From Variimorphobacter saccharofermentans (lineage in GTDB: Bacteria; Bacillota; Clostridia; Lachnospirales; Lachnospiraceae), in the NCBI RefSeq assembly GCF_014174405.1, contig NZ_JACEGA010000001.1, positions 1,889,001 through 1,953,000 of the forward strand: 64,000 bases of DNA. Direction: 5' to 3'. This document shows positions 2,903-21,207 of this stretch, one piece after another (position 1 is the stretch's first letter; each line of letters starts with the position of its first letter). The position numbers were made by a program, and so were the translations under genes. Under the pieces are notes generated by a model that was not told where the DNA came from, made no database searches, and saw only the letters and a list, made by a program, of their open reading frames with translations.

Positions 2903-2912
2903 GAGGAGCATA

Positions 2913-5911: not shown

Positions 5912-6628
5912 ATGCTTAAGATTGCAATATGTGATGATGAAAAGTACTACAGAGATTATATTAAAAGGCTGCTTACAGAATATATGAACAGGAATCAAAT
6001 TGAGTCCTGCATTGATTTATATGAAAATGGGATGCAGTTATTTGAACAGGGAATTAAGCTGGCCAAATATAACATAATATTTCTGGATATTAACATGGAA
6101 GAATTGGATGGCATTAAAACAGCATACAAAATAAGAAAATTTAACCCAGAGGCTTTCATTGTATTTGTTACTGCATTCATTAATTATGTACTGGAAGGAT
6201 ATAAAGTAGATGCAATTCGTTATATTATGAAGGATTCTATACCGATATCTTTAGTTGAATGTATGAATACCATAGTGAAGAAAATGAAGATATTGATGAA
6301 AAAGATGAGCTTTTCCTTTATTGAAGGAGAAAAGCAAATCTTTATAGATAAGATTATTTATGTGGAAAGTCAAAAGCATAAAATTATGTTCAAAGTACTG
6401 GAAGGGAGGATAAATACATATAGCCTATATGATAAGCTGGATAATATGGAAGAACGATTGAAGGAGTATGGCTTTCTACGCATCCATAAAAGTTATCTTG
6501 TGAATATGAAATATATTGAGAAGATTAGTAATTATAGGGCTTATTTAAGCTCGGATGAAATACTACCAATTCCAAAGCAAAAGTTTCAACTGGTGAAGGA
6601 AGCGTTTGTGTTGTATAAGGGGGAATAG
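5912..6628 (+). CDS. LytTR-family response regulator, AgrA-like
   Basis: A 238-residue two-domain regulator. The receiver domain (about 1-120) has the acidic pocket ICDDE near residues 6-10, the phospho-acceptor aspartate in IIFLDIN near residue 59, VTAF and the conserved lysine in YIMKDS. The C-terminal LytTR DNA-binding domain (about 140-235) shows IIYVES, then FLRIHKSYLVN and LPIPKQKF. It lies one base before the kinase gene and upstream of AgrB and AgrD genes, so it is the transcription factor of an agr quorum-sensing circuit. LytTR proteins bind paired direct repeats; its targets here are unproven, but the peptide cluster downstream is the natural candidate. Confidence 0.92.
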   Translation: MLKIAICDDEKYYRDYIKRLLTEYMNRNQIESCIDLYENGMQLFEQGIKLAKYNIIFLDINMEELDGIKTAYKIRKFNPEAFIVFVTAFINYVLEGYKVDAIRYIMKDSIPISLVECMNTIVKKMKILMKKMSFSFIEGEKQIFIDKIIYVESQKHKIMFKVLEGRINTYSLYDKLDNMEERLKEYGFLRIHKSYLVNMKYIEKISNYRAYLSSDEILPIPKQKFQLVKEAFVLYKGE

Positions 6629-6629
6629 G

Positions 6630-7943
6630 ATGATCATTAGTTTATTACAAAGCTTTGTAATAATATTATTTGAAACAGCATGCTGTAAGATATTTGCAGA
6701 TACTTTTTTTCATCGCAAGGAATATATTAATAAGTGGATAAAAAAATACATCTTAGTAATCATGTTTATAGGGTTCTTTGTTATATCAACAATTCTGCTG
6801 AGCTTCGCTTTATTAAAATACATAAGTATCGTTGCCTTCATTATTTTATTATGGAAAATATATTATCATGCAAAACTTAAGCAGATATTGTTTTTTGCTA
6901 TTATATATTTCGGGATTTTGATAAGCATAGATTATTCCTTGCTTACATTATTAAAATTTATATTTTCAAAGGATTATTATTCATTCCTAAATAGTCCATT
7001 AAAGGGTACTTTAATTGCATTACTATGCAAAACCGTCTTATTTATTATCTTCTTTTTTATCAGACGCATATGGAAACCACATGATAGTTTGAATATGATT
7101 ACGAATAAGGAAATGATACGTTTTGCGTACTTTCCATTATTAACATTAGGAACAATATTTGCGTTGATCGCCACAACTGATTATGAAAACATGGTTCAGA
7201 ATATTTCGCTATTATTCATTGCAGTAGGTATGGCCATAATGAATATGGTGATATTTTACTTAATACATGACATTATTGACAGAGAGATACAGATACAGAA
7301 TGATCGATTAGTTCAGGAGAGAACAAAAAATCAGATGCGTCTTTACTATACGATGAAGGAATCCTTTGAGAAACAGAAGAAATATATGCATGATTATAAA
7401 AATCAACTAAACTGTATTAAGGGTTTGTTGATGAACGGCAAGCTTCAGGAGTCGATTGATTATATAACTGGTCTTACTGGAAATATTGATATGGATATGG
7501 ATTCTATACATACGAATAATGTAGTAGCGGATGCAGTCATAAATCAGAAATATCGGGATGCCAAAAGAAATGGAATAATTATTATGATTACGGTTAATGA
7601 TCTGTCAAGATTAATCATAACAGAGCAGGATTTGGTTTCGTTACTTTCTAATCTTTTAGATAATGCAATTGAAGCCTGCCAAAAACTTGAAGAGAATAAA
7701 GTGATTCAGTTTAAGTGCATGAATGATAAAAATCAACTTATTATTGCTGTAAATAATCCGGTAAGGGAGGACATTCAGATTATTGACCAAAGAATTGCAA
7801 CTACAAAAGAGAATAAACAGGATCATGGTATTGGATTACTTAATATTAGGGAAATTATTAATAAATATAATGGAACCAGTGCAATTAAGTGTGAAAATCA
7901 TTGGTTTTACTTTTCAGCGCTCATACCGAATGAAATATTATGA
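6630..7943 (+). CDS. AgrC-like sensor histidine kinase (GHKL ATPase)
   Basis: A 437-residue membrane kinase. The ATG at 6630 is chosen because AAGGGGGAA precedes it; the frame stays open further upstream inside the regulator gene. Six or so hydrophobic segments fill residues 1-215, as in AgrC peptide receptors. Then come a coiled region, the phospho-acceptor box YMHDYKNQL (HPK10 type, His followed by DYKN), an N box NLLDNAIEAC and a G box DHGIGLLNI. It should sense the cyclic peptide made by AgrB/AgrD and phosphorylate the adjacent regulator. A T-rich stretch (CTTTTTTTG) directly follows the stop, without a strong hairpin. Confidence 0.92.
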   Translation: MIISLLQSFVIILFETACCKIFADTFFHRKEYINKWIKKYILVIMFIGFFVISTILLSFALLKYISIVAFIILLWKIYYHAKLKQILFFAIIYFGILISIDYSLLTLLKFIFSKDYYSFLNSPLKGTLIALLCKTVLFIIFFFIRRIWKPHDSLNMITNKEMIRFAYFPLLTLGTIFALIATTDYENMVQNISLLFIAVGMAIMNMVIFYLIHDIIDREIQIQNDRLVQERTKNQMRLYYTMKESFEKQKKYMHDYKNQLNCIKGLLMNGKLQESIDYITGLTGNIDMDMDSIHTNNVVADAVINQKYRDAKRNGIIIMITVNDLSRLIITEQDLVSLLSNLLDNAIEACQKLEENKVIQFKCMNDKNQLIIAVNNPVREDIQIIDQRIATTKENKQDHGIGLLNIREIINKYNGTSAIKCENHWFYFSALIPNEIL

Positions 7944-8114
7944 AGGGGCTTTTTTTGTTTTCGCGCAGTCGGTTTTTGCTATCATGATTGACGTTATTAT
8001 ACTTTAGGATGTTAATATTAGTTGTAGGGATAAATTGAATGCATAGATTAAGTCACCAAGCATATAATATATTAAATAGGATGCTTTGTGATGAAAGGGG
8101 ACAGGCATATATTT

Positions 8115-8714
8115 ATGGTTCATAAAATCGCAGTTCGGATTAGTGAAAGTCTTATTAACAATGGAATGAGTAACCGAGATAATGTAGAGTACTATATTTA
8201 TGGAATTGAAGTTTTTATTGAGAAGATTACTTTTTATCTAATAGTTCTCTCCTTAGCATTGTATTTCAGACTTTTTATTCCGAGTATATTATTTTTAGTA
8301 TTCTTTATTGCTTTGAGAGGGAGAACAGGCGGTTATCATGCAAAACGTTATATTAGTTGCTTATTAGGATCGACCTTATTATTTTTATCATGTTGTAAGG
8401 TGTTTGCTCCTTTTTTGCTAAACAATACGCTCATTATGTATTTATTATGTGCAATTGCAAGTGTTATAATTTTGATATTTGCACCGGTTAATCATCCAAA
8501 TGTAAATATGGACTCGGAGGAACTGAATAGCTATCGGATAAGAGCCAGAGTGGTTCTTGGATTAGAATTATTATATATAGTTACATTATCCATCTTGAGA
8601 ATAAAATCGGTATATATTATATTTCCATCAATGGGGATTATAATGTGTGCTGTTTTATTAATGATTGCAAAAATTATAAAACAGGAGGTAAGCTATGAAA
8701 GAAGATTTGATTAA
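8115..8714 (+). CDS. AgrB-family peptide processing membrane protease
   Basis: A roughly 200-residue integral membrane cysteine protease that trims and cyclises the AgrD propeptide. The catalytic region reads LRGRTGGYHAKRYISCLL, with the conserved His and Cys of AgrB. Multiple hydrophobic helices fill the rest. The start is uncertain: ATG 8115 follows AAAGGGGACAGG, while GTG 8088 and ATG 8091 are in frame but have weaker sites. The gene overlaps the AgrD gene by 20 bases, a normal translational coupling for agrB-agrD. Confidence 0.9.
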   Translation: MVHKIAVRISESLINNGMSNRDNVEYYIYGIEVFIEKITFYLIVLSLALYFRLFIPSILFLVFFIALRGRTGGYHAKRYISCLLGSTLLFLSCCKVFAPFLLNNTLIMYLLCAIASVIILIFAPVNHPNVNMDSEELNSYRIRARVVLGLELLYIVTLSILRIKSVYIIFPSMGIIMCAVLLMIAKIIKQEVSYERRFD

Positions 8715-8844
8715 GAAAAGTGTATTAAGATCAGTTCAAAAGGTAGCAGAAGTGGAGGCAAATATGGCTTGGACACCTTGGCCTCCGAATTGTATGGGGC
8801 TAATTCATCAGCCAAAGAGGCCTCAGAAAAAGAATACGAAATAA
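8695..8844 (+). CDS. AgrD-like cyclic lactone autoinducer propeptide
   Basis: A 49-residue propeptide with an ACAGGAGG site at 8681. It has the three AgrD parts: a charged amphipathic N-terminal helix (MKEDLIKKSVLRSVQKVAEV), a central AIP segment with one cysteine (AWTPWPPNCMGLI), and a polar proline-containing tail (HQPKRPQKKNTK). In staphylococcal AgrD the ring is a thiolactone between Cys and the residue four places downstream. By the same rule the ring here would be CMGLI with an exocyclic tail rich in Trp and Pro. That boundary is inference. The assignment rests on its position overlapping agrB and on this architecture. Confidence 0.85.
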   Translation: MKEDLIKKSVLRSVQKVAEVEANMAWTPWPPNCMGLIHQPKRPQKKNTK

Positions 8845-8872
8845 GAAATAAGAAATAAGAAGTAAGAAGTAC
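8841..8872. repeat. short AT-rich direct repeat after agrD
   Basis: ATAAGAA is repeated as ataagaaataagaaataag and then as agtaagaagta over about 30 bases immediately after the agrD stop. It is probably slippage-prone and I see no function. Confidence 0.4.
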
Positions 8873-8938
8873 ATAGGTACAGATATATAGTTGATAAAGA
8901 ACTGCCATTTGGGGCGGTTATAACTTAATCCCGGAATA

Positions 8939-8986
8939 AATCGGCATAGTATGGTTTGGCTTACCTGCTATGCCGATTATTCTTTT
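8939..8986 (+). terminator. terminator of the agr operon
   Basis: AATCGGCATAG (8939-8949) pairs perfectly with CTATGCCGATT (8968-8978) and is followed by ATTCTTTT. It separates the agr locus from the peptide island. Confidence 0.75.
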
Positions 8987-9141
8987 CCATTATGATTTTT
9001 GATGCTTCCAACAGTATGGCAACTTAATCACCGACTTTTTATGCATTTCAAGAGTGCATTCTTGTCTATGCAATTGTAATGTCAGCCATGAGATTGTATG
9101 CTATAGATGGTAGCCAGGTACTCCACATTTTCTTGTACTTA

Positions 9142-9193
9142 TGAACTATTTTCCCTGTGAATAATGAAAATTGTTTACAGGGAAAATAGTTCA
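9142..9193. repeat. perfect 17-bp inverted repeat, unit A upstream element
   Basis: TGAACTATTTTCCCTGT (9142-9158) and ACAGGGAAAATAGTTCA (9177-9193) are exact reverse complements around an 18-base loop. The right arm continues into CATCAA, giving GAAAATAGTTCACATCAA, which recurs exactly at 9712-9729 in unit B. No T run follows, so it is not an ordinary terminator. Confidence 0.8.
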
Positions 9194-9321
9194 CATCAAT
9201 GACATCATAGTCTACATCAAATTGAGCTAAAGCATAACTTAAAGTAATGTTCAAGCAAAAGATGATGAATACTTAAAACTTTAAATATAAAATAGAATAT
9301 GGTGTGAACTATGAAATGATG

Positions 9322-9415
9322 TGGTAACCATTTGATAATCTGTTCTCTCCAAAATGTTGTTGTGACTATATTATTGCAATTGTAATTTTCAACTTTAAGT
9401 TATCAATGGTTACCA
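9322..9415. repeat. long inverted repeat, unit A downstream element
   Basis: TGGTAACCATTTGATAA (9322-9338) pairs with TTATCAATGGTTACCA (9400-9415), with one bulged T and a loop of about 60 bases. It is preceded by GTGTGAACTAT (9302-9312), which has a counterpart ATGTGAACTAT in unit B at 9934-9944. Confidence 0.7.
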
Positions 9416-9416
9416 T

Positions 9417-9461
9417 AAAAAAATCCGGTAGGGTAAATCAATCATCCTACCGGATTTTTTT
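9417..9461. terminator. strong bidirectional terminator
   Basis: AAAAAAATCCGGTAGG pairs with CCTACCGGATTTTTTT around a 13-base loop. A-tract and T-tract flank the GC-rich stem, so it could work in both directions. It ends unit A and insulates the precursor gene. Confidence 0.85.
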
Positions 9462-9670
9462 ATCGCATAAGGAATTTCTCCGAATTTCCTATACGATAAA
9501 AAAGATAAGTAATAAATAACAGCTATTTAATACACAATTACGCATAATATGCATCAAAACAGTCGATTTGTGTAGTGGAGCGGTATGTTCATGCATCAGG
9601 CATTGAAATATCAGATATCGTGTAGTAAATTTATGTCAATAAGAAGCAAACAAACGAGAATTCAAAGGAT

Positions 9671-9723
9671 TGAGCTATTTTCTTTGCAAATAACAGAAGA
9701 GTGTTTGCAAAGAAAATAGTTCA
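9671..9723. repeat. 20-bp inverted repeat upstream of the precursor gene, unit B
   Basis: TGAGCTATTTTCTTTGCAAA (9671-9690) and TTTGCAAAGAAAATAGTTCA (9704-9723) are reverse complements with one G-T pair around a 13-base loop. It is the counterpart of the unit A repeat at 9142-9193 and lies 48 bases before the precursor start, so it could be an operator or an RNA hairpin in the leader. Confidence 0.75.
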
Positions 9724-9771
9724 CATCAAAGTAACGAAACATATCAATTAAAAATTTAGGAGGTATTGGCC

Positions 9772-9912
9772 ATGGAAGAAAAAAGAATGGATAACACAAT
9801 GGAAATGCAAACTGAGATTTCTGAGAACATCGATTTAGTTACTATGTTTGATGACTGCGAAAGTGGTTTCTTGGCTAAGAAAGATAAGTTAATCACCTGG
9901 TTATTATCATAA
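9772..9912 (+). CDS. candidate RiPP precursor peptide (46 aa)
   Basis: An AGGAGG at 9758-9763 sits eight bases before the ATG. The peptide is 46 residues. Its first half is acidic and hydrophilic (MEEKRMDNTMEMQTEISENI), as expected for a leader. Its second half (DLVTMFDDCESGFLAKKDKL, then ITWLLS) holds the only Cys, two aromatic residues before the Trp, and ends in a C-terminal serine. No family is recognised. The call rests on size, the very good ribosome binding site, leader/core polarity and the following genes for a PqqD-type recognition domain, radical SAM enzyme, kinases and proteases. It could instead be a small regulator. Which residues are modified is unknown. Confidence 0.65.
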   Translation: MEEKRMDNTMEMQTEISENIDLVTMFDDCESGFLAKKDKLITWLLS

Positions 9913-9933
9913 TAAGTTTTAATTAGTAATAAG

Positions 9934-10086
9934 ATGTGAACTATTTGAAAAGTGTGGTAGCACATGGAAAGCTGTTTTCATATGATTGGCTTATGAGTAC
10001 ATATTCAGAAACAATTATTTGCAATAACGCATAGAAAGCTTAATCTGGCAAACTATGCATTCGCTTTCAGGCTGTTACCACACTTT
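9934..10086 (+). ncRNA. possible structured RNA element between precursor and modification genes, unit B downstream element
   Basis: AAAGTGTGGTA (9949-9959) pairs with TACCACACTTT (10076-10086). Nested inside are GGAAAGC with GCTTTC and GCATAG with CTATGC, giving a branched fold of about 140 bases. The sequence starts with ATGTGAACTAT, shared with unit A. There is no long T run, so it may be a partial terminator, an mRNA-stability element separating precursor from enzyme expression, or a small RNA. It contains no ORF worth calling. Confidence 0.4.
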
Positions 10087-10124
10087 CTTTATTGCAATAA
10101 GACTTCAATATTCAATATTTGAGA

Positions 10125-11063
10125 ATGATTTGTCATGAGGATATAGAAAATTGGGTGAATAGAATGAACGAATACGAATTCGGTAAAATTATAATAAAAT
10201 CACTTCAGAATATAACCGAAGAAATGGTTTTATTACATAAGGAGCTTGGAAGTAATCAGGAATTAAACCGATGTAAAAGGCACGTTATCTATATAGAGAA
10301 TTTGGAACGTTGTTTTGAGCGCTACATAGTCGGGATGCAAAGAGTTTACCATAATCCCGTAACTGGACATGAGATATGGAGGGATAAGGAAAAGACCGTT
10401 GATATAACCTCTAATATCATAAGTGTCACAAGGAGCTTCTCCAGTGAGATTTATTATCGAGACAGAGAAGAATTATATGGATGCTTAAGGGGAAAGCTGT
10501 GTGAACTGATTCGTAAGGAGGCCTTGGCTACGTCTCTATATGCCATCCATGCGGCATTACTCCGTAAGGGTGATGATATTATCTTAATAGTAGGGAATAA
10601 GGGATCAGGAAAAACTTCATCTGCGTTGAGAGCTTACTTCAGACATTGGGACATCCTAACGGATGAACTGATCTTTGTGGACAGGGACAAGCAGATTTCA
10701 GCGTTAAAGAGATACCCGGCTCTATCCGGTAAGGTTCTGGAGCGATATTTTTCCAATTACCCAATAGAACGAGTAAGAACTATACGAAGTGCTATTACAG
10801 GTGAACAAAAAGAATTACTGAAGCTTCCAATTCTATACGAGAAAACCGGTATCAATGTGAATTGTATCAGTTCAATTTATATCTTACCCAATAATCGCAA
10901 TTGCTTTATAGAAGAACGGTTTAAAAGGAAAATATTTCTTAATAATTTTATACCCGGTAACCTAGATGATACATTACTATATCAGAATTGCAGCTCACTA
11001 TATGAGAAATGCAAGATGATATTACTTCAGGATGCGGAAACTGTTTTTAGTGACTCTGAATAG
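10125..11063 (+). CDS. HprK-related P-loop kinase, first copy
   Basis: A protein of about 312 residues. Residues 1-135 are unassigned. A P-loop domain follows, with HAALLRKGDDIILIVGNKGS leading into the Walker A GNKGSGKTS near residue 157, and the acidic ILTDELIFVD that matches the second strand of HPr-kinase/PEP-carboxykinase-like folds. Proteins of this kind act in some lasso-peptide clusters as kinases for the precursor C-terminal serine, and the candidate precursor here ends in serine. Start choice is poor: TTG 10119, ATG 10125 and ATG 10164 (after GGGTGAAT) are all possible. It is followed by the nucleotidyltransferase gene after 34 bases. Confidence 0.7.
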   Translation: MICHEDIENWVNRMNEYEFGKIIIKSLQNITEEMVLLHKELGSNQELNRCKRHVIYIENLERCFERYIVGMQRVYHNPVTGHEIWRDKEKTVDITSNIISVTRSFSSEIYYRDREELYGCLRGKLCELIRKEALATSLYAIHAALLRKGDDIILIVGNKGSGKTSSALRAYFRHWDILTDELIFVDRDKQISALKRYPALSGKVLERYFSNYPIERVRTIRSAITGEQKELLKLPILYEKTGINVNCISSIYILPNNRNCFIEERFKRKIFLNNFIPGNLDDTLLYQNCSSLYEKCKMILLQDAETVFSDSE

Positions 11064-11097
11064 GATAAGTAATGCTACACGGTAGGAAGGAACTGCT

Positions 11098-11769
11098 ATG
11101 GTTGATAAAAAGGAGATCTTAGAAGCATATTGCATCAGCAATCACATCGATTATCACTGTATATTATTACATGGCTCCCAGGCAATCGGATTTGCCAACC
11201 AGTATTCAGATTACGATTATCTCATAATAACTCGGGATAAAGGGAAAAAGATAGATACCTTTCTTGATAATACGCATTGTAAGATTCAGCTAGAATTCCT
11301 GGATCTGTCATCATTGGAACAGCTTTTGATGCAATACGAGGATACTCTTTTTGACAGAATATCGGATCTGAATCTGATGGCAGGAAGAATCCATATGAGT
11401 AAAATGGTTGTCAACAGAGATGATGAGGTCGGAAAGCTCATGAAACACTACCGACCATTTAAACAAAGGAGTAAATTAATTGAGAAATTCATATATCAAG
11501 CCATGAATTTTTATTCTGACTCCAAGAGCAGCGATTTTTTATTAAAGAAATACTCTATTGATATGATGCTGCGATCCTTAGGTGTGGCTTATCTGATTTC
11601 CAAGGATATCTATTGGCTTCATCTGAAATGGCAGCATAGATTCATGGAAATACTCCTTCCAGTAGATATGTATGAAATCTATATGAGGCTGTTGTTGGAG
11701 AATGCTTATTATCGAGATGAGGATATCGTGAAATATTCTAAGGATTTAATTCAGCTTATTCAAGAATAA
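11098..11769 (+). CDS. nucleotidyltransferase-domain protein
   Basis: A 223-residue protein with the polymerase-beta nucleotidyltransferase signature LLHGSQAIGFANQYSDYDYL near residues 23-42: GS motif, then SDYD with the two metal-binding aspartates. A third acidic strand follows (CKIQLEFLDL). The remainder is helical, as in aminoglycoside-type and MNT-type enzymes. GGAAGGAA precedes the ATG. Such genes sit beside HprK-like kinase genes in several peptide clusters, where their role is unclear; transfer of a nucleotidyl group to peptide or phosphopeptide is possible. It lacks an antitoxin-type partner, so a toxin-antitoxin role is less likely. Confidence 0.75.
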   Translation: MVDKKEILEAYCISNHIDYHCILLHGSQAIGFANQYSDYDYLIITRDKGKKIDTFLDNTHCKIQLEFLDLSSLEQLLMQYEDTLFDRISDLNLMAGRIHMSKMVVNRDDEVGKLMKHYRPFKQRSKLIEKFIYQAMNFYSDSKSSDFLLKKYSIDMMLRSLGVAYLISKDIYWLHLKWQHRFMEILLPVDMYEIYMRLLLENAYYRDEDIVKYSKDLIQLIQE

Positions 11770-11832
11770 CATGATTCACAATGATAGATTACAATAAAAG
11801 CTTTATGGCTTCAAAGAAAGGAATGATATTCC

Positions 11833-12867
11833 ATGCTTAATCAGATTACTTACTGCATCAACCGTAAGGTATATTCCTTTGATAAAGACCTATTAACCGG
11901 CATTTCGATGAAATATGATACAAATTCAATTCATTATACTTCAATTGTTAATAAGGTGGGCTTGTATTTTACTGCTGGTTCCAGGGAAGTGATAGATACA
12001 ATGAAGAAATACTATCAAGAAATGACCTGGAGTAGCTTCACCGGACCCATTGTACATATTCATTTGATGAAAGCACCCTCCTATGATGATAAAATATTCT
12101 GGATTACAGAGCAGGATAATCTTCTAAAGGGTCAAAATCAGAACGGAGACACCTTCTACTGCTTCAATAATAATATGGCAAAGGTAACGAGTACGGGACA
12201 CCGCATAGAGGTTCATTATGTCGATAAGGAATTTTCATTATTTTTGCCTCTGTTAATCAAGGTGATAGAAGGAGTTGTTATTGAACATCATATTGGACTG
12301 GGCTTTTTTCCGGTTCATGGAGCTTTGATGATTCATGATGTGAAAGTATATATGCTACTTGGGTCATCCCAATCCGGTAAAACCACATTAATGGAGCTTT
12401 TGGCAGAAAGGGGTTACCAGGCATTAAGTGATGATATCATTTTCTTGGATTTACATGGCAGGGCCTATCCATTCGGACATTACGTAAAGCAGAATTGCGA
12501 TGACAGAATGGATAAAAGAGTCTGTGAGGATTTCTATGTGGAGCAAAGTATACATATCACAAGAAGAATTATTCCAATCCCCTCTACACCATATGAGAAT
12601 GGTTTGAATATAGATTGTATTGTATTTCCGAGTATTTCTGCTATTGAAGAGGCAAAACTGTACGAAAGCAGTATGGGCGAGACGATGCTTCATCAGCTGC
12701 TTAGTGATTATCCGAATGGTTATTTTGTAGAAGCAGATTTTAATTATTGTCAGGCGGCAATTATGATTAGCCAGTTGCTAAAGTGCAGGATGCTCGAAAT
12801 GAGATTTGCCTATAACAAGGACAACGGAAGGGTTGTGAAATTATGGGAGAAGAATATGGAACAATAA
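11833..12867 (+). CDS. HprK-related P-loop kinase, second copy
   Basis: A 344-residue protein. The N-terminal half is unassigned. The C-terminal half begins with HHIGLGFFPVHGALMIHD, then the Walker A loop LLGSSQSGKTTLMELLAERG near residues 177-196, followed by YQALSDDIIFLD with the acidic pair typical of HPr-kinase-like and PEPCK-like folds. It shares only this core layout with the first kinase-like protein, so the two are distant paralogues. The last 25 bases overlap the M16 peptidase gene, implying translational coupling. Expected substrate is the cluster peptide, by analogy to paeninodin-type kinases; this is inference. Confidence 0.72.
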   Translation: MLNQITYCINRKVYSFDKDLLTGISMKYDTNSIHYTSIVNKVGLYFTAGSREVIDTMKKYYQEMTWSSFTGPIVHIHLMKAPSYDDKIFWITEQDNLLKGQNQNGDTFYCFNNNMAKVTSTGHRIEVHYVDKEFSLFLPLLIKVIEGVVIEHHIGLGFFPVHGALMIHDVKVYMLLGSSQSGKTTLMELLAERGYQALSDDIIFLDLHGRAYPFGHYVKQNCDDRMDKRVCEDFYVEQSIHITRRIIPIPSTPYENGLNIDCIVFPSISAIEEAKLYESSMGETMLHQLLSDYPNGYFVEADFNYCQAAIMISQLLKCRMLEMRFAYNKDNGRVVKLWEKNMEQ

Positions 12868-14009
12868 TTACTTCCGATGGAACGGGGAGTATGAATATAA
12901 TGGCGGCTGGCTGTTGGTTTGATTCGGGATCCTTTTCTGATCCTTCTAATCTTCCCGGATTACATCATTTCCTGGAGCATATTCTACTGAATATTCCGAA
13001 CATAAAGAAGCAATTTCATAAGCTGAAGGAAAAGGGAATTCTGGTTAATGCATTCACATCCCATGAAATCATGTGCTTCTATGCAGCCTCTCCGGAAGAG
13101 GATATGGAAGAAATTATGGAGTTTATGAAGGAACTTCTTTCTAGCAAAATTGACCCAAATGAAGATTTGGGCTTTGAGAATGAACGTAATATTATCTTAA
13201 GTGAGCTGGAGTACCACAATATTCTCGTGGAACATGCAAGAGAAAGTATTTTAAACAGGATGTTTCCGGAATTACGGGATAGATTTCGTATTCTCGGAAC
13301 AAATGAGGGAATTAAGTCAATAAGGTTGGAGGATGTTTCTGAATTATATAATAATATTGCGAACAGAAGTTGTAGGTTCCTTACTCTGTGTGGCAATGGT
13401 ATCGATCAATGGTTAATGGATAAACAGGAAAGATATCAGGGCTTCAATAAGAATACCTGTCATTCTGGACAGGAAGACAAGTCCATTCATACTAATTTGC
13501 AATATCATCCGGTGCAGAGTGCGGGGGAGGCTCTGCATTATTCGAAGGATAAAATAGTTCACTATACGGCCGGAATGTTTTTTCGTAAAGAATTTCGTAA
13601 AGAAGGGCAGGTTTTCTCTGAATATGTGAAGGAGCAATTAACGGAGGAGCTAAGAGAAAGGCTGAGTATTACTTACCGCGTGGAAACCTCTAATCTGAAT
13701 TTTCGCTCTGGATATGTGACCTTTTGGATGATCAAGACGTTGGGTCAGAATGTCCCACTGATTACAGAGAAGATCCATTTGCTGATCGAGAAAATGAAGG
13801 AGGAACAAGCAGCTCTTCTTAATCAACTGGAACGAAAGATCAGGATAAGAAACAGTATCAAAAACAACAATGTCTTAAGCAGCCTGCTGAAACTGGGATA
13901 TGAGAATACCATCTTAAAGGATGAAACGGATGATTGTGATTTTATCGCATTTATAAAAACAATGCAAAATAGAAAAGGGGACTTTTATCAAAATGTCATT
14001 GAATTATGA
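12843..14009 (+). CDS. M16-family metallopeptidase of the peptide island
   Basis: A 388-residue zinc protease domain of the pitrilysin/PqqF family. The inverted zinc motif HxxEH is present as HFLEH (His42, Glu45, His46) in GLHHFLEHILLN. The downstream helix FENERNIILSELEYH supplies the likely third ligand, Glu114. It is shorter and more divergent than the housekeeping M16 protein at 40486, whose motif is HIIEH. M16 enzymes remove leader peptides in some RiPP pathways such as PQQ. It is coupled by overlap to the kinase before it and the PqqD-domain gene after it, so leader cleavage is the likely role. Confidence 0.85.
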   Translation: MGEEYGTIITSDGTGSMNIMAAGCWFDSGSFSDPSNLPGLHHFLEHILLNIPNIKKQFHKLKEKGILVNAFTSHEIMCFYAASPEEDMEEIMEFMKELLSSKIDPNEDLGFENERNIILSELEYHNILVEHARESILNRMFPELRDRFRILGTNEGIKSIRLEDVSELYNNIANRSCRFLTLCGNGIDQWLMDKQERYQGFNKNTCHSGQEDKSIHTNLQYHPVQSAGEALHYSKDKIVHYTAGMFFRKEFRKEGQVFSEYVKEQLTEELRERLSITYRVETSNLNFRSGYVTFWMIKTLGQNVPLITEKIHLLIEKMKEEQAALLNQLERKIRIRNSIKNNNVLSSLLKLGYENTILKDETDDCDFIAFIKTMQNRKGDFYQNVIEL

Positions 14010-15042
14010 AGCAGCATCAAAATATATCCTTCAGGATAAGCTAATCGTAAAAGAAACGCAGTCCGAGTATATTGTAAAATCACCCAGGGGGGTAGTTCTG
14101 TTAAACCGCTTGCAGTATGAGATCCTTATGCGCTTCTCGGAAACACCGATTACTCTGAACGATATTTATATGCAATACAATAACCTGCCGTCAGATAAAC
14201 TGAAAAATCTCTTAGACAAATTTATCTTTGAAAAGCTGATATTGGACACAAGAACGAATCGATTACAAAAGAAAACGATAGGATACTATTTTCGTATGCT
14301 TACTCGTATTGAATTGCCCAGTAGGAGATTAATCGTCATTATAAAAAAGTGTCTGGCATCCCGTAATATGACATGGAAGGTAGTATCCTCTCTGATTTGT
14401 ATCAGCCTCTCCATCTATTGTAATATTCGGCTAATTCCTTATACTGGATTTTCATGGAATCAGGTAGAACGGTGGTTTGGATTTCTGCTAATTGGTATTG
14501 CGATTGCTTTTTATCATGAGGTCTGGATGGCTGCATTTATTATCCGTTATGGAGGAGAGCATACCATAAAATTTAAATTAAGAATACTCTTAGGTGTCTT
14601 TATCAGTGTAGTTGTTGGTTGGGAATATCTGCTTACCATTGAGAAAAAGAAGACACTCCGTACCTTTTTGCTGGTGGATTTGTTTACGATAGCCCTATGT
14701 TCGAAATTTGCTATCATCGGTTTCCTTTTTATGTGCTTATCAATGAAAAGCCTGGCGTATATGTTTTGTACCTTTTCCATTATTGGCTATTCCTATATGC
14801 TGATTAATCTTTGGCCGTTCTTATTAAAGGGGGACGGATATAATATGTTCTGTATCTATAATAATGTGGCAAGACTTCGGAATTATTTTTTGCGTCTGAT
14901 CTATTCCGTAGTATGCAGAAAACCCATTGATTTTATACCAAAGGGAAAGCTGCTGTTATACCTTTTATGGGGGTTCATGTTTGCTCTATCGTTAGTATTT
15001 ATAGAGTATGCCTTTTATCATGGCTTACGGCTAAGAATTTAG
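13993..15042 (+). CDS. PqqD-like recognition domain fused to an M50-like membrane domain
   Basis: A 349-residue protein in two parts. Residues about 1-90 match the PqqD/RRE fold that binds RiPP leader peptides: RGVVLLNRLQYEILMRFSET and a following helical stretch ending FEKLILDT. Residues about 125-345 are membrane helices with site-2-protease-like features: AFYHEVWMAAF (His175-Glu176, but Met where HExxH needs the second His) and INLWPFLLKGDGYNMF, which fits the NxxPxxxxDG motif of M50 enzymes. It may be a degraded protease kept as a membrane scaffold that brings the precursor to the maturases. It overlaps the M16 gene by 17 bases. Confidence 0.75.
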   Translation: MSLNYEAASKYILQDKLIVKETQSEYIVKSPRGVVLLNRLQYEILMRFSETPITLNDIYMQYNNLPSDKLKNLLDKFIFEKLILDTRTNRLQKKTIGYYFRMLTRIELPSRRLIVIIKKCLASRNMTWKVVSSLICISLSIYCNIRLIPYTGFSWNQVERWFGFLLIGIAIAFYHEVWMAAFIIRYGGEHTIKFKLRILLGVFISVVVGWEYLLTIEKKKTLRTFLLVDLFTIALCSKFAIIGFLFMCLSMKSLAYMFCTFSIIGYSYMLINLWPFLLKGDGYNMFCIYNNVARLRNYFLRLIYSVVCRKPIDFIPKGKLLLYLLWGFMFALSLVFIEYAFYHGLRLRI

Positions 15043-15126
15043 AAAAGAAAACTACATGGGATTAGGCCCTTGACATTATGAATAAATCTATGGTGGATAA
15101 TCTTAGAAGGAAGGGTGGATATACAT

Positions 15127-16944
15127 ATGTATGATATCATACTGGTTAATCCGATAAAAATTAGGGACAGCTATGTGATGCTGCCGCTGGGTACCTTAAC
15201 ATTGGCAACAATATTAGAGGAAAATCATATCAATGTAAAGATAGTAGATTTTAATTATCTTTGGGAAAAAAAGCTTCTTGATAAAGAGAAGAATATAAAG
15301 GCACTTCTGGAGGAAATGTGTGATTATCTGCTTGGTTTATCTCCTGGAATAATTGGCTTCAGCACCAACAGCTCCTGTCATCATGTAGCAATTGAGCTGG
15401 CTCGCTTACTGAAGGAGAAGGGAACCCCAAAGGTGATATTCGGAGGTCATCAGGCCAGTCTGTGTGCGATTGAGACCATGAATCAATTTCCTTGGATTGA
15501 TTTGGTTTCTGTGGGAGAAGGAGAATACAACATTGTTCCAATTACGAAGGCTCTGCTTAATAATGAACCACTGGATCAGATACCAGGTATCGTATTTCGG
15601 GAATCCAATATGATAATAAGTACCGGGGAAGCAAAACTGATGGAAAATCTGGATTTACTTCCAATGTTGCATTACGATCTGATTCCCATGGATATTGAAA
15701 CCAACAGGGCTAATAAAATAGCATTTCCCATTGAAGTAGGCAGAAGCTGTCCATTTCAATGCACATTCTGCTGTACGAAGACCTTCTGGAAGCAGAAGCC
15801 CCGAATGAAGAGCACGGAGCGATTAATTTCGGAGATAGAATTTATCATTGAGAAGTATGGAATATATGATTTCCATTTTCTTCATGATTTATTTACCTTT
15901 CATCAGCAAAAGGTCATTGATTTTTGCAATCAGGTAATTGCAAAGCAGCTTCCAATACGCTGGATCTGCAGTATTCGAGTAGATACAGTCAACGAAAGCC
16001 TGATACGAATTATGAAGGAGGCAGGATGTCAAAAGGTCTTCTTAGGAATTGAGACAGCCTCTGCAAAGCTACAGAAAGTAATCAGGAAGAACCTGAACAT
16101 ATCAAATATATGGGAAAAGGTTCAGCTTCTGCAAAAATACCATATAAAAGTAGAAGCAGGCTTTATGTATGGATTTCCGGAAGAAGAGGAGGAGGATCTA
16201 AATCAGACGCTGAATATGATGCTGCGCGGTGCCGGCCTCGGTTATTGGTTCCCGGAAATCGGAGTTTTGAATGTGGAAAATGGTACGGAAATACACGACC
16301 AGATCAAAGATCGCTTATATATCAAGAAAAATCTGGACAATATTTATCTGTGTGGATACGAGGAATTTGAATATTTCTATCCCATGTTTTCGAAGCACAA
16401 GGATATCTTTCCGCATTTTTGCGATTTTGACAGTATTACAAGACAACAGTATGCATATTTAGATCGATTTGTCTGGATATTAGTTAGTATGCTATTCCTT
16501 GGCTTTAAGACCTCCATCAGTATGCTGATTAAGTTATATGAGAATAATATCCTAGCCATTTATACAGATTTAGTAACAGAATGCAGCGAGAAGTTCCAGA
16601 GTATATTCGTTGAGAATTTTGCAGTAACCAATAGCACGGATCGGGATTCTATTGAGAAAAGAATTGACTTATTAAATACTTTTGCAGAGATTATTGCGCA
16701 GAATAAAGAGTATGGATCCGTTATTACTGAGATATTTGAATTAGACCAGCAGATCGTAATGCTTCGTTTGTATGGAGAAATCGGAGAGAGTGTGGAGTTA
16801 AATTTCCAATATGATTTGCTTCAGATCAAACAATCTGGTAAAATGAATACAGATATTGGAAAATACAGGATAATACTAGAAAAAACAGAAGGTAATCGAA
16901 TTAAGATGGAGGGTTTCTCAAAGAATATCCAGCCTGTTTGTTAG
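15127..16944 (+). CDS. B12-binding-domain radical SAM enzyme, putative peptide maturase
   Basis: A 605-residue enzyme started at the ATG at 15127, which lies after AAGGAAGGGTGG; a GTG at 15115 is in frame inside that site. Residues 1-160 form a cobalamin-binding-type Rossmann domain (MYDIILVNPIK, IIGFSTNSSCHHV, KVIFGGHQASL, VSVGEGE). The radical SAM barrel follows, with the CxxxCxxC cluster motif CPFQCTFC at about 208-215 and downstream KVFLGIETAS. The last 150 residues (about 450-605) are not recognised. Class-B enzymes methylate or cyclise unreactive carbons. Next to a candidate precursor and a PqqD-domain protein, a role in peptide modification is likely; the reaction cannot be predicted. 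Confidence 0.85.
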   Translation: MYDIILVNPIKIRDSYVMLPLGTLTLATILEENHINVKIVDFNYLWEKKLLDKEKNIKALLEEMCDYLLGLSPGIIGFSTNSSCHHVAIELARLLKEKGTPKVIFGGHQASLCAIETMNQFPWIDLVSVGEGEYNIVPITKALLNNEPLDQIPGIVFRESNMIISTGEAKLMENLDLLPMLHYDLIPMDIETNRANKIAFPIEVGRSCPFQCTFCCTKTFWKQKPRMKSTERLISEIEFIIEKYGIYDFHFLHDLFTFHQQKVIDFCNQVIAKQLPIRWICSIRVDTVNESLIRIMKEAGCQKVFLGIETASAKLQKVIRKNLNISNIWEKVQLLQKYHIKVEAGFMYGFPEEEEEDLNQTLNMMLRGAGLGYWFPEIGVLNVENGTEIHDQIKDRLYIKKNLDNIYLCGYEEFEYFYPMFSKHKDIFPHFCDFDSITRQQYAYLDRFVWILVSMLFLGFKTSISMLIKLYENNILAIYTDLVTECSEKFQSIFVENFAVTNSTDRDSIEKRIDLLNTFAEIIAQNKEYGSVITEIFELDQQIVMLRLYGEIGESVELNFQYDLLQIKQSGKMNTDIGKYRIILEKTEGNRIKMEGFSKNIQPVC

Positions 16945-17010
16945 CAGATCGTCATTAATCACTTGTCTGTTACCCAAAGTCAGCAGATATTAGGAAAGGA
17001 AATTGAATTC

Positions 17011-17772
17011 ATGGAAGGTATAAAAAGAGCACCGATGCTTTCTTTTATCTTAAAGTTTATTATTTTTCTACTCATCTACTCAGCAATAAGTACCCTGACG
17101 GATGAAGCTGTGTATGTCAAGCGAATTGCACAGTTTTTCCTGTATGTGTTATTTGCCTTTATATTACACAGAGAAAAAGGAGTGGAGTTTCATTATAAAT
17201 TCCATTTTCATATTCTGGACTTTATCATAGCATTTTTGCTATTATTTTCATCGATTATTTTTTATGAGGGAACCATCGAGAAACTGATTGATACTTATTT
17301 TAATTATGAGATATCCCTTCCGGAGAGCGAAGGTGTTATGGATGAGATGTTTCGTTATCCGATCCCTCTTTTTCTGCAAATCTGTGTCACTGCTCCGGTC
17401 TTTGAAGAGCTTTTGATGAGGGGTTATTTACTAAAGACAGTAAGCGTAAAATATTCTGTAGGTGTAGGAATTTTACTAAACAGCTTATTTTTCTCCTTCT
17501 TGCATTTTGATTTTGTAAATACCTTATTCTATTTTATGATTGGTATCCTGTTAAGCTACATTTATCTGAAAACAGGTTCCTTACTACATTGTATTCTACT
17601 GCATTTTTCCATTAATTTCACCGCTTTGCTGTCCTATTATTTAGAATTTGAAATGCCCGGTCAGAATATCAGTATTTCTATGCTGCTCCTTATGGGGGTA
17701 ATTATCGTAATAACTATGTTTTATTTTATCCGAAAACCCCAACAAAAGATTGCTGTATTATCTGTAAAATAA
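17011..17772 (+). CDS. CPBP-family intramembrane metalloprotease
   Basis: A 253-residue membrane protein with the CAAX-protease/bacteriocin-processing (CPBP/Abi) motifs: APVFEELLMRGYLL (EExxxR), SFLHFDF (FxxxH) and LLHFSINFTAL. About seven hydrophobic segments are visible. I start at the ATG at 17011, ten bases after TAGGAAAGGA; a TTG at 16963 in the same frame has no site. In peptide clusters these proteins process precursors or give self-immunity. It is the last gene of the island and no dedicated exporter follows. Confidence 0.88.
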   Translation: MEGIKRAPMLSFILKFIIFLLIYSAISTLTDEAVYVKRIAQFFLYVLFAFILHREKGVEFHYKFHFHILDFIIAFLLLFSSIIFYEGTIEKLIDTYFNYEISLPESEGVMDEMFRYPIPLFLQICVTAPVFEELLMRGYLLKTVSVKYSVGVGILLNSLFFSFLHFDFVNTLFYFMIGILLSYIYLKTGSLLHCILLHFSINFTALLSYYLEFEMPGQNISISMLLLMGVIIVITMFYFIRKPQQKIAVLSVK

Positions 17773-17865
17773 TAATCCACTCAATAATTCCTGTTGAAAT
17801 TAGCACATCATTATGGTAATATGGTAAAGTGCTAAATGAAAAATGGTATTTATGAGGAGGATTTT

Positions 17866-18672
17866 ATGAAGAAACTATTCAGTTTGATTATGGTTACTCT
17901 AATGATAATAAGTCTGACAGCTTGCCAGAAGAGTACCGGTAGTGACGAATCTCTTAAGTACATACAGGATAATGGGAAATTAATCCTGGGTCTGGATGAT
18001 TCATTTCCGCCGATGGGCTTTCGTGATGATGCCGATAATATAGTAGGATTTGATGTTGATCTTGCGCAGGCGGTATGTGATAAACTGGGAGTAGAATTAG
18101 TACTTCAGCCGATTGAATGGGATGCTAAGGAGCAGGAATTAAATACGAAGAACATTGACTGTATCTGGAACGGTTTCTCTGTAACCCCGGATCGTCTTGA
18201 GAAGTTAACAATGTCGAAGCCATATATGTTAAATAACATAACTCTGGTAGTAACAAAGAATAGTGATATTACCAAGTTTGATGATATGGCAGGAAAGCGC
18301 CTCGCTGTACAGAGCGGTTCTTCTGCGGAAGAAACCTTAAATAGCGAAGAGAATAAAGACTTCAAGGATTCCTTGGGTCAGGTGAATCCGTTCAGCGATT
18401 ATGTAACTGCTTTAATGGATCTTGAGACAGGGAACTCCGATGCGGTATTGATGGATTCGGTTGTAGCAAATTATATGATTACAGAAGCAGGAAAAGATTT
18501 TGTTGTATTAGATGAGACTTTATTAAAAGACGAATATGCCATCGGCTTCCGCAAAGGGGATACCGCTTTATGTGAAGCAGTGGAAAAAGCGTTAAAGGAA
18601 CTTAAGGCTGACGGAACTGTGGAGAAGCTTGCAGTCAAATGGTTTGGTTCGGATATTACGACAATCGAATAA
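17866..18672 (+). CDS. amino-acid-type ABC transporter substrate-binding lipoprotein
   Basis: A 268-residue family 3 solute-binding protein. It starts at the ATG after GAGGAGG, has an N-terminal lipoprotein signal ending LTAC with Cys20 as the lipidation site, and then the binding-protein core: GKLILGLDDSFPPMGFRDD, VGFDVDLAQAV, a central LAVQSGSSAEE and the C-terminal KELKADGTVEKLAVKWFG. It serves the permease and ATPase downstream (19760, 20425). The ligand should be polar amino-acid-like. A hairpin with a short T run after it would lower expression of the downstream genes relative to the binding protein. Confidence 0.93.
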   Translation: MKKLFSLIMVTLMIISLTACQKSTGSDESLKYIQDNGKLILGLDDSFPPMGFRDDADNIVGFDVDLAQAVCDKLGVELVLQPIEWDAKEQELNTKNIDCIWNGFSVTPDRLEKLTMSKPYMLNNITLVVTKNSDITKFDDMAGKRLAVQSGSSAEETLNSEENKDFKDSLGQVNPFSDYVTALMDLETGNSDAVLMDSVVANYMITEAGKDFVVLDETLLKDEYAIGFRKGDTALCEAVEKALKELKADGTVEKLAVKWFGSDITTIE

Positions 18673-18695
18673 TGAGATAGTAGGATAATGTTGAT

Positions 18696-18734
18696 AAAAA
18701 GCTCCTAAATATGATAGAATATCTAGGAGCTTTT
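18696..18734 (+). terminator. attenuating hairpin after the binding-protein gene
   Basis: AAAAAGCTCCTA (18696-18707) pairs with TAGGAGCTTTT (18724-18734). The T run is only four long, so partial read-through into the kinase and permease genes is plausible, a common arrangement in ABC importer operons. Confidence 0.65.
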
Positions 18735-18773
18735 AGTATTATATGGATGTTACATTATATTGGAGGATGCAAT

Positions 18774-19679
18774 ATGCATGATATTTATTTATACGGATCT
18801 ACTCTTGTAACCGATTCCTTTATTCTTGAGGGTGAATTCCCTCAGAAAAATCAATATGCAGAGTTCACGGAGCACCATTGTACGATCGGTGGAGAAACCG
18901 GAATATGCCTGGCAATACTATCGGAGTATGGAATTAGGGTAAAAGCCGATGGATATCATCTTGGTACATATACTGCACCGAAACTATTTGAGTATTTTAA
19001 GGGCAGAAGTGTAGATCTGAGTGCAATGACGGTCAGAGATGATTTTGAAGGCTTTCATGATTATGTGTTAATAGATCGAATTAATAATACCCGTAACTGC
19101 TTCGGACCATTTGGAACCTTACCAAGGATAATGGATCATCCATATAACATGCCCATAGAAAGTGACATCGCTGATGTGAAATGTGCAGCGATAGATCCGT
19201 TCTTACCGGATGCAGCAGAGGCTACAGCAAAATACGCTGTAAAGTATAAGGTTCCCTATATTACGATTGATTGTCGATACGATAGCTATCTAGCGGAAAA
19301 TTGTGCTGTTGCTGCAATTTCAGAGGAGTTTTTGTCCAGTGAATTTCAGGGAGAGAATCCTGAACAGCTTATGAAGGAATATATGAAACGTGGGGACGGA
19401 CTATATATATTCACCTTTGGCTCCCACGAGGTTATCTATGGCCGGAAAGGAAAGATATCACGCTACGAGCCATTCCATGTGAAAGCACTTTCAACATTGG
19501 GTGCTGGAGATACCTTTAAGTGTGGATGTATATATGCGTATTATAGTGGAATGAGCGATGAAGAAATAGTTGCTTTTGCATGTGCCATAGCGGGTGTTGC
19601 GTGTTCTGTGTATCCGTTGGCTGATAACCTGCCTACATTAAAGCAGATACAGGAATTACTGGATACCAGAAAGAAGTAG
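18774..19679 (+). CDS. PfkB-family carbohydrate kinase (fructosamine-kinase-like)
   Basis: A 301-residue ribokinase-type enzyme started at the ATG after TGGAGGATG; a frame reaching back to 18711 overlaps the terminator and is rejected. The PfkB signature is STLGAGDTFKCGCIYAY, with the catalytic aspartate in GAGD, and the N-terminal part has HHCTIGGETGICLAI. Sitting between the binding protein and permease of an amino-acid-type importer, it may phosphorylate a sugar-amine or sugar-amino-acid adduct after uptake, as fructoselysine kinases do. No deglycase gene is adjacent, so substrate assignment is inference. Confidence 0.85.
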   Translation: MHDIYLYGSTLVTDSFILEGEFPQKNQYAEFTEHHCTIGGETGICLAILSEYGIRVKADGYHLGTYTAPKLFEYFKGRSVDLSAMTVRDDFEGFHDYVLIDRINNTRNCFGPFGTLPRIMDHPYNMPIESDIADVKCAAIDPFLPDAAEATAKYAVKYKVPYITIDCRYDSYLAENCAVAAISEEFLSSEFQGENPEQLMKEYMKRGDGLYIFTFGSHEVIYGRKGKISRYEPFHVKALSTLGAGDTFKCGCIYAYYSGMSDEEIVAFACAIAGVACSVYPLADNLPTLKQIQELLDTRKK

Positions 19680-19759
19680 AGACGCAGAGCGATCAATCAA
19701 AAATAATATAAATAAGTAATGTAATAGTGCCGTACTAAGACGGCAGATGGAGGTTTCCT

Positions 19760-20419
19760 ATGAGAATCGACAACGTACCGATGGACTTATTCCTACCGAA
19801 TATGTTATCCGCCACCGTTACGGTACTAAAAATATTTTTCCTTACTATCTTATTCTCAATACCGTTAGGTTTTATCGTAGCCCTTGCAAGGAGAAGTAAA
19901 TACAAATTCATCAGTGTACCGGTTCGTATTTATCAGTTGATATTCCGGGGTACGCCGTTAATGCTGCAATTGTTTTTCTTTATGTATGGTCCTTATTACA
20001 TATTTGATTCCAGCCTTGACCGTTTTGTAGCTTGTATCCTTGCTTTTACAGTAAATTATGCGGCTTATTTCGGAGAGATTTTCCGCGGAGGAATTGCTTC
20101 AATTCCAAAGGGACAGTATGAAGCGGCAAAGGTACTTGGATACACTAAATTTCAGACCTTTATGAGGATTATTTTACCCCAGGTAATTAAGCAGGTCATT
20201 CCGGCAACTGGTAATGAATTAATGACCTTGGTAAAGGATACTTCTCTGGCACAGGTAATCTCGGTAGTAGAATTATTCCGTGTTGCTTCTGCAGCAGGCT
20301 CCAAATATTTCTCCACAGTACCGATTATTGTTGCTGCCGTATTCTATTTAGTTATGAACACCGTAGTTGAGATATCCTTTAAATTGATTGAAAAGAAATT
20401 CGATTACTATAAAAATTAG
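19760..20419 (+). CDS. amino-acid ABC transporter permease
   Basis: A 219-residue inner-membrane subunit of the HisM/GlnP family. It carries the N-terminal family region [39 protein letters not shown] and the EAA loop [20 protein letters not shown], which contacts the ATPase. About five transmembrane helices. AGATGGAGG precedes the ATG. The stop lies five bases before the ATPase gene, so the two are co-translated. Confidence 0.95.
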
Positions 20420-20424
20420 AGATA

Positions 20425-21207
20425 ATGGACGAGGAGGCAGCTGATCATATTATGTTATTGAAGGCAGAAAAAATACGGAAAGAGTTTGATAATACAAGCG
20501 TGCTGAAGGACATTTCTCTTGAAGTGAATGAGGGGGAGGTGGTTGCAATTATTGGACCCTCCGGTTCAGGAAAGTCTACATTACTTAGATGCCTTACACA
20601 GCTGGAGAAGGTAGACAGTGGTAGAATTGAAGTGTGTGACAACGTGATGGTAGATACTTATTCGGGCTTCGGATATGCGGATAATAAGACGCTTCATAAA
20701 ATTATACTGGAGGTAGGCCTGGTATTTCAGAACTTCAATCTATTTCCTCATTATTCCGTACTCCGTAATATTGTGGATGCGCAGGTTAAAGTCCTTGGTA
20801 TCGATAAGAATACAGCCAAAGAGAAAGCGTTGTCTCTTTTGGAAAAGATGAATTTACGTGACCGTGCGAATGCTTATCCCTGTGAGTTGTCGGGTGGACA
20901 ACAGCAAAGAATTGCCATAGCACGAGCACTAGCACTGAATCCTCGGATTCTATTCTTTGATGAACCAACCTCAGCTTTGGATCCGGAATTAACCGGTGAG
21001 ATATTAAAGGTAATTCGTTCCTTGGCAGAGGAGCATATGACAATGGTAATTGTTACTCATGAAATGGCTTTTGCCAGGGATGTGGCAGACCGTGTAATCT
21101 TCATGGATGAGGGTGTAATCGTGGAGCAGGGTACTCCGGACGAGGTATTTGGTAATACAGTAAATGAAAGAACCAAGAGCTTCCTGCAAAGATTTAATCA
21201 AAATTAA
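20425..21207 (+). CDS. amino-acid ABC transporter ATP-binding protein
   Basis: A GlnQ/HisP-family ATPase of 260 residues from ATG 20425, or 251 from ATG 20452 ([12 protein letters not shown]), which follows GAGGAGG at a long spacing. Walker A is [11 protein letters not shown], the Q loop [12 protein letters not shown], the signature [15 protein letters not shown], Walker [15 protein letters not shown] and the switch His in VIVTHEM. It powers the importer formed with the genes at 17866 and 19760. Confidence 0.96.

Follow-up and report, generated by a model that had tools for sequence, protein, structure and literature searches.

The closest published relatives of the system described here belong to two families of ribosomally synthesized and post-translationally modified peptides (RiPPs), namely the paeninodin-type lasso peptides and the Linear Polyphosphorylated Peptides (LPPs). 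According to the accessible parts of the respective reports, lasso clusters of rumen Lachnospiraceae carry HPr kinase and nucleotidyltransferase genes (PMC7533575), the HPr kinase of another RiPP study sits in lasso clusters, apart from radical SAM (PMC4289311), and the LPP kinase LppK phosphorylates a serine of a linear precursor, with the phosphorylated residue being internal and the deletion of lppN causing no detectable change (Popov et al. 2026, PMC13381572). The available text on aminopyruvatide describes ApyD as methylating the Tyr C-beta (PMC11117315), and that on epipeptides and pearlins places membrane M50-type proteins (EpeP, TglG) in RiPP clusters, with EpeP thought to cut and export (PMC10885120). 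Here, we analyzed a 64,000-nucleotide stretch of the Variimorphobacter saccharofermentans genome (the window), in which eight genes at 9772-17772 form an island that we consider likely, though by no means certain, to be a RiPP biosynthetic cluster with kinase, nucleotidyltransferase and radical SAM tailoring under agr control. This reading is built on the gene content, the conservation, the homology of one kinase, the predicted folds, the motifs that are kept or lost and the proximity of a regulator. Among the papers listed in a literature search covering titles and abstract openings, with subscription journals largely outside it, there was no description of the eight-gene set and no publication containing any of three precursor peptide strings.

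All eight genes lie on the + strand in consecutive order, and the open reading frame listing of the window agrees with the earlier note on this point as well as on the overlaps of 25 bases (12843-12867) and 17 bases (13993-14009). They encode a 46-aa precursor peptide counted from its ATG (9772-9912), a kinase with an HprK/PEPCK-like fold (kinase A, 10119-11063), a pol-beta-type nucleotidyltransferase (11098-11769), a second HprK-like kinase (kinase B, 11833-12867), an M16 metallopeptidase (12843-14009), a PqqD-type RiPP recognition element (RRE) fused to an M50/S2P-like membrane domain (13993-15042), a B12-binding radical SAM enzyme (15115-16944) and a CPBP (Rce1/MroQ-like) intramembrane protease (16963-17772). 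The mechanical open reading frame of the precursor opens at TTG 9766, upstream of the ATG at 9772, and AGGAGG lies shortly 5′ of that ATG. Later true starts are probable for kinase A (ATG 10164), the radical SAM enzyme (ATG 15127) and the CPBP protease (ATG 17011), judging from alignment with two orthologues. Searched as single sequences against Pfam and NCBIfam, the precursor, both kinases, the nucleotidyltransferase and the RRE-M50 protein gave no match above the curated cut-offs, and their names come from profile or fold comparison.

The same gene set was sought elsewhere with a profile of the RRE-M50 protein built from 12 sequences. In a collection of 84,980 species genomes, from which the own genome is perhaps left out, 68 stretches fitted a pattern and two were relatives, Anaerocolumna sp. 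AGMB13025 (L004) and Herbinix hemicellulosilytica (L005). Both carry the full set of eight, with gene order and strand unchanged and identities of 33 to 74 percent, and the small open reading frame is found in the same place, as one copy in Anaerocolumna and as two tandem copies in Herbinix, so that the recurrence of the neighbors and the conservation of the precursor, which the earlier note had singled out as tests of its idea, are both observed. The flanks differ among the three genomes, with a glycoside hydrolase-like gene (by eye) upstream and a helix-turn-helix gene followed by agr genes downstream in Anaerocolumna, and a divergent LytTR regulator upstream and a NUDIX-like gene (by eye) downstream in Herbinix. 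In samples that overlap and are each drawn from a larger group, the RRE-M50 profile matched two of 34 genomes of the genus (the own genome and one other), and only the own genome among 397 of the family and 392 of the order, while the precursor profile matched only the own genome among 398 of the phylum. Weak RRE-M50 matches were seen in G068, G110 and G299:C28, of which the one in G068 was rejected, reading by eye as a sugar transferase and no relative. Among viral contigs, the exact precursor pattern was absent and none of 55 stretches held an RRE-M50 relative; the single stretch returned by a looser precursor pattern reads as a non-precursor with the cluster genes absent nearby. Plasmids yielded no RRE-M50 protein and, save one match of 34.9 percent at E = 5, no Bacilli-type precursor. 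The eight-gene set is thus rare and patchy yet conserved. It is beyond chance because of its ordered recurrence in two genomes, the conserved family of the small open reading frame and the mostly synonymous changes in the core of the latter.

The window precursor ends in FDDCESGFLAKKDKLITWLLS. A single-sequence search found 10 relatives, and a profile search found 44 matches, of which 39 reach E ≤ 1e-3 and the other five (P0054-P0058) range up to E 0.42, with sources that include Anaerocolumna, Acetatifactor, Lysinibacillus (P0049, E 1.7e-4) and Leuconostoc citreum (P0056, E 0.021). Together with the window sequence, 41 of the 45 peptides end in LS (the others being P0018, P0038, P0055 and P0058) and 44 contain GFLAK; P0058, which has no GFLAK, is probably not a precursor, and P0018 is a shortened copy, near-identical to the window precursor, that may come from the same species. 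The conserved part is the C-terminal FDxCESGFLAK...WxLS. Among the 44 GFLAK-bearing sequences, F stands six residues before GFLAK in all, Cys three before it in 42 (Ala in P0056, Gly in P0057) and S immediately before it in 35, while Trp is found among the final eight residues in 42, and in 41 the length from GFLAK to the C-terminus is 15, 18 or 19 residues. A C-terminal S is present in 41 of them, with the other three shortened or running on; T or S precedes the Trp in 25, and an additional S, T or Y occurs between GFLAK and the last residue in 38, at variable positions. The C-terminal Ser is therefore the best-kept hydroxyl residue, though others exist.

Between genera, the C-terminal half of the precursor is near-invariant and the N-terminal half drifts, which is the opposite of the usual RiPP precursor. 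Over 21 core codons, the window and Anaerocolumna differ by seven synonymous and no non-synonymous changes, whereas random placement of eight base changes gave a mean of six non-synonymous ones and none of 20,000 simulations was as low; four other core pairs had one to three non-synonymous codons where 7.3 to 9.7 were expected (≤4 of 20,000 as low). The precursor core is under purifying selection. In the three genomes with the cluster, precursor matches are confined to it. Among metagenome proteins, the RRE-M50 and precursor matches have source assemblies with longest contigs of equal size (19,506, 50,850 and 6,242), which suggests that they sit on the same contigs; several precursor matches also share such a size with each other, 50,850 occurring three times with different tail types. 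A second precursor type (P0037, P0041-P0044) carries the tail KIPxWLxFxLS or similar, and in three of these five (P0037, P0041, P0044) the longest contig equals in size that of a type-one precursor. A membrane-active helix was tried as an explanation of the tail and is unsupported: the helical moment was reached by 2515 of 5000 shuffles, amphipathicity is at shuffle level, and a simple helix of this kind is therefore not indicated.

Kinase B is homologous to HprK-like kinases of lasso loci. A profile of its three orthologues finds kinases in loci bearing the lasso B2 protease PF13471 (best E 4.8e-12 among the open reading frames of seven loci), and hhalign places it with the seven lasso-locus kinases at a probability of 98.4 and E 4.9e-15 over 100 columns, while an M16 profile used as control scores 0.2 percent. 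The comparison loci are regions from seven of nine PF13471-bearing family genomes, five of which yield the seven kinases and two none. H162, G.SQ.GKTT and SDD of kinase B are invariant in all three orthologues. Two of the Lachnospiraceae loci, L026 (3224-4198, 8182-9102) and L027 (639-1562, 2016-2939), have two HprK-like kinases each, and in a listing limited to open reading frames ending in S, a small Ser-ending frame stands beside one kinase per locus. The nucleotidyltransferase scores under the Pfam cut-offs (PF18765 E 1e-3, PF01909 E 3e-3) with its pol-beta-type motifs kept; its HGS...G...SD.D is invariant in three of three sequences, and it was matched in one of 250 family genomes, its own. 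It may share at most a superfamily with the nucleotidyltransferases of lasso clusters.

Three of the remaining enzymes score above the Pfam cut-offs and keep their catalytic signatures in all three orthologues. The radical SAM enzyme matches PF04055 (1.2e-19) and the B12-binding PF02310 (4.7e-9) with an invariant CxxxCxxC, the M16 protease matches PF00675 (E 2.4e-14) with HxxEH retained and H42, E45, H46, E114 and E121 invariant, and the CPBP protease matches PF02517 (E 1.6e-20) with the EExxxR, FxxxH and HxxxN residues invariant. The fusion protein of 349 residues holds an RRE at about residues 9-89 and a probable S2P-like fold, both assigned by fold comparison, and the Pfam PqqD model PF05402 has no match across the whole genome. 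Active M50 (site-2) proteases have HExxH and DG ligands, whereas this protein keeps DG and reads HE(V/L/M)(W/C)(M/L) in each of 12 sequences, that of the window among them, so that the fifth position is M or L and the second zinc His is absent. With this alteration the protein is perhaps not a protease of the usual active kind, although an invariant Cys could substitute as zinc ligand. The domain reading of the earlier note thus stands overall, and what it called an M50-like protein is refined to this RRE fusion with an altered zinc site. Anaerocolumna (L004, 11119-11463) and Herbinix (L005, 11125-11385) have small membrane proteins, encoded after the RRE-M50 gene and before that of the radical SAM enzyme, which are related to each other (31 percent over 65 residues, E 2.6e-5); no counterpart was found in the window, and these proteins are possibly immunity proteins.

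The two nearest families each fail on some of the defining features that were tested. With the paeninodin/pseudomycoidin lasso clusters, the locus shares an HprK-like kinase (kinase B being homologous), a nucleotidyltransferase (which may belong at most to the same superfamily), an RRE and, as far as the accessible text goes, a C-terminal Ser in the precursor (PMC8498205). However, PF13471, present in 9 of 200 family genomes, is unmatched in the own genome, and no asparagine-synthetase-like macrolactam cyclase domain occurs in the eight proteins, which agrees with the absence of lasso hallmarks claimed earlier; the [Y/W]xxP leader motif precedes GFLAK in only one of 44 precursors and not in the window, and the radical SAM, M16 and M50-like proteins are extra. 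The LPP clusters, in the available portion of their description (PMC13381572), resemble the locus in having an HprK-like kinase without a lasso cyclase, perhaps also in their NTP transferase, in having an RRE and one to three precursors per cluster, and in their patchy distribution in Bacillota. Several phosphates on a single Ser are a further mark of LPPs. They differ in their archaeal-type SpI leader peptidase (none among the eight proteins of the cluster, the rest of the genome not having been searched), in their MsbA-like transporter (none among the eight proteins), in a discrete RRE where the locus has one fused to the M50-like fold, and in a conserved N-terminal YxxPxVLxHQ leader with variable C-termini, whereas the precursor here is conserved in its C-terminal half; relative to them, the locus adds a B12 radical SAM enzyme and two proteases, of the M16 and CPBP types.

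Other families are more distant. ApyD is the best NCBIfam model for the radical SAM enzyme (residues 24-401, E 1.4e-74) but a remote one, at 251.7 bits against a cut-off of 750. In the accessible text on aminopyruvatide (PMC11117315), the class is defined by an MNIO and the precursor ends in YLYD, whereas the eight proteins contain no MNIO, P450 or methyltransferase domain and the window precursor ends in WLLS. Compared with EpeP and TglG as presented in the available part of PMC10885120, the M50-like protein of the cluster is alike in being a membrane M50-type protein of a RiPP cluster but has an RRE within the same chain and no second His in HExxH, and no PEARL-type domain of the pearlins matched any of the eight proteins. 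Lasso peptides, LPPs and aminopyruvatide each have at least one tested defining feature that the cluster lacks. As far as phosphate is presumed to be added, it may be likened to an LPP or a paeninodin pathway, yet it is neither. We regard it as a variant within the RiPPs, and knowledge of a product would give a fair case for a class of its own.

The product is probably a small, phosphorylated and carbon-modified peptide, and we propose the following order of chemical steps by analogy. Recruitment of the precursor would fall to the RRE of the fusion protein at the membrane, and one or both HprK-like kinases may phosphorylate its C-terminal Ser in the manner of the paeninodin-type kinases; this site is favored because of its conservation, although the LPP site is internal. 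The nucleotidyltransferase would then build on the Ser phosphate, adding a nucleotidyl or phosphosugar group, with both steps modeled on the accessible portions of the lasso (PMC8498205) and LPP (PMC13381572) work. The B12 radical SAM enzyme would alter one carbon in the conserved part of the precursor, most likely by C-methylation, because its nearest named relative, ApyD, is described in the available text as methylating the Tyr beta-carbon (PMC11117315). The M16 protease, possibly together with the CPBP protease, may cut off the leader, and the M50-like protein may anchor, present or export the peptide without standard zinc-site cleavage, export being suggested by analogy with the partly available account of EpeP (PMC10885120). 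The CPBP protease would complete the processing or confer self-protection, and an agr-type quorum-sensing regulator probably turns the cluster on. Secretion and the biological role of the peptide are likewise put forward as predictions.

The regulator is placed by its position. A complete agr-type operon occupies 5912-8844 on the + strand (PF04397, PF14501, PF04647 and TIGR04223 over cut-off), with the LytTR regulator at 5912-6628, a GHKL kinase at 6606-7943, AgrB at 8088-8714 and AgrD at 8695-8844, and ends 0.9 kb upstream of the precursor. On the downstream side of the Anaerocolumna cluster an agr operon begins after 0.8 kb; its regulator and AgrB are called by Pfam, its kinase by similarity to that of the window and its AgrD by eye. 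In Herbinix, a LytTR regulator stands alone 0.23 kb upstream, with no AgrB or sensor kinase match within the stretch around the cluster. A LytTR gene therefore lies ≤5 kb from the cluster in all three genomes, which contain 11, 13 and 3 such genes, and the Poisson chances of one lying that close to an 8-kb stretch placed at random are 0.046, 0.034 and 0.018, respectively. It is possible that the agr-type operon regulates the cluster. A promoter scan returned 38 sites against 38.6 expected and is therefore uninformative.

An RRE and an M16 protease also occur together in the synthesis of pyrroloquinoline quinone (PQQ), and a PQQ-like cofactor of fixed structure has to be weighed, in which the precursor would be a scaffold from which the RRE-M50 protein, the M16 protease and the radical SAM enzyme excise a small modified unit that is kept in the cell. 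The near-invariant C-terminal half with its drifting N-terminal counterpart and the lack of a dedicated transporter among the eight genes would fit such a cofactor, but the tandem Herbinix precursors, the three matches with the equal longest contig of 50,850 and different tail types, the variable length from GFLAK to the end, the rare, patchy distribution and the LytTR regulator near the cluster in all three genomes speak against it. PQQ clusters have Glu and Tyr in the PqqA core, and PqqE is a SPASM radical SAM enzyme; the window precursor, in contrast, has no Tyr, the radical SAM enzyme is B12-binding with no SPASM match, and PF05402 has no match in the genome. We regard a cofactor as unlikely.

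A secreted bacteriocin-like or signal peptide under agr, with kinases that phosphorylate it for self-protection and a final structure free of phosphate, seems rather improbable as well. CPBP proteins often confer immunity, and the agr or LytTR neighbor in three of three genomes and the small membrane protein adjoining the radical SAM gene in two of three clusters point in this direction. Against them stand the shuffle-level amphipathicity of the tail, a core that appears better conserved than an arms race would lead one to expect, and the missing counterpart of the small membrane protein in the window. Finally, five of the eight products, the small open reading frame included, have no single-sequence match above a curated cut-off, as might be the case if that frame were no precursor and eight unrelated housekeeping or regulatory genes were adjacent by accident. 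This is highly improbable given the ordered recurrence of all eight genes within different flanks, the confinement of precursor matches to the cluster in three genomes and the purifying selection on the core. The phosphorylated, carbon-modified RiPP under agr control is the reading that we prefer.

Inverted repeats bracket the precursor at 9671-9946 (+ strand, repeat search), with a hairpin at 9671-9690/9704-9723 and an exact 14-base pair at 9714-9727/9933-9946. Herbinix has the same layout in unrelated sequence (hairpin 5752-5803, exact arms 5793-5805/6190-6202), and Anaerocolumna was not seen to have it. The bracketed regions of the window and Herbinix fold better than 100 of 100 shuffles, whereas 16 of 100 shuffles fold as well as the Anaerocolumna precursor region. 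Because the 5′ arm is common to both in the window and in Herbinix, the hairpin and bracketing pairings are mutually exclusive, and the arms are a possible RNA switch. Further upstream, 9132-9470 is strongly structured (fold z -10.1, none of 100 shuffles as good). It comprises a hairpin of 24 bases (9142-9193), an antisense arm (9300-9312) and a perfect stem of 18 bp (9415-9463) that closes with a run of T. Its hairpin is 85 percent identical over 34 bases to the element just before the precursor, and the segment 9132-9414 matches itself, its own inverted arm, that element and nothing else; it looks as if it were the remnant of a lost second precursor unit. A genome-wide repeat or mobile element was considered and rejected, with 17 copies of AGTTCACATC in the genome, three of them at the locus, compared with 8 copies of the reversed control. 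No Rfam model matched at its gathering score within 8000-19000. About 6 kb upstream of the cluster, 559-3473 encodes a sugar transferase, a nucleotidyl (RfbA-like) and a dTDP-sugar epimerase (RfbC-like) gene, and LPP and paeninodin clusters also lie near polysaccharide loci in the accessible part of PMC13381572. Downstream, the genes of 17836-21207 look by eye like those of an ABC transporter for amino acids (binding protein, permease, ATPase), into which a PfkB-like sugar kinase gene is inserted, and they have no match in either of the two related genomes at E 0.01.

A wider reading is conceivable, if doubtful, namely a new class of linear RiPPs that combines lasso-type C-terminal Ser phosphorylation, nucleotidyl or phosphosugar capping, B12 radical SAM modification and agr control. 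Such a class would belong to Lachnospiraceae, and would extend to Bacilli provided that the precursors of Lysinibacillus and Leuconostoc are part of like clusters. Given how little the C-terminal half varies from genus to genus compared with the drifting leader, its product might be one extracellular signal shared by many species, and the tandem variants a second dialect. In the preferred reading, two separately known tailoring chemistries, HprK-type Ser phosphorylation with a nucleotidyltransferase and B12 radical SAM modification, would meet on one small peptide. The near-invariant C-terminal half is unusual among RiPPs and shows what the enzymes must recognize, and the RRE-M50 fusion, having lost a zinc ligand, hints at a scaffold in the membrane on which RiPPs are assembled. 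Should agr control be true, the cluster would link quorum sensing to an uncharacterized metabolite in anaerobic Clostridia.

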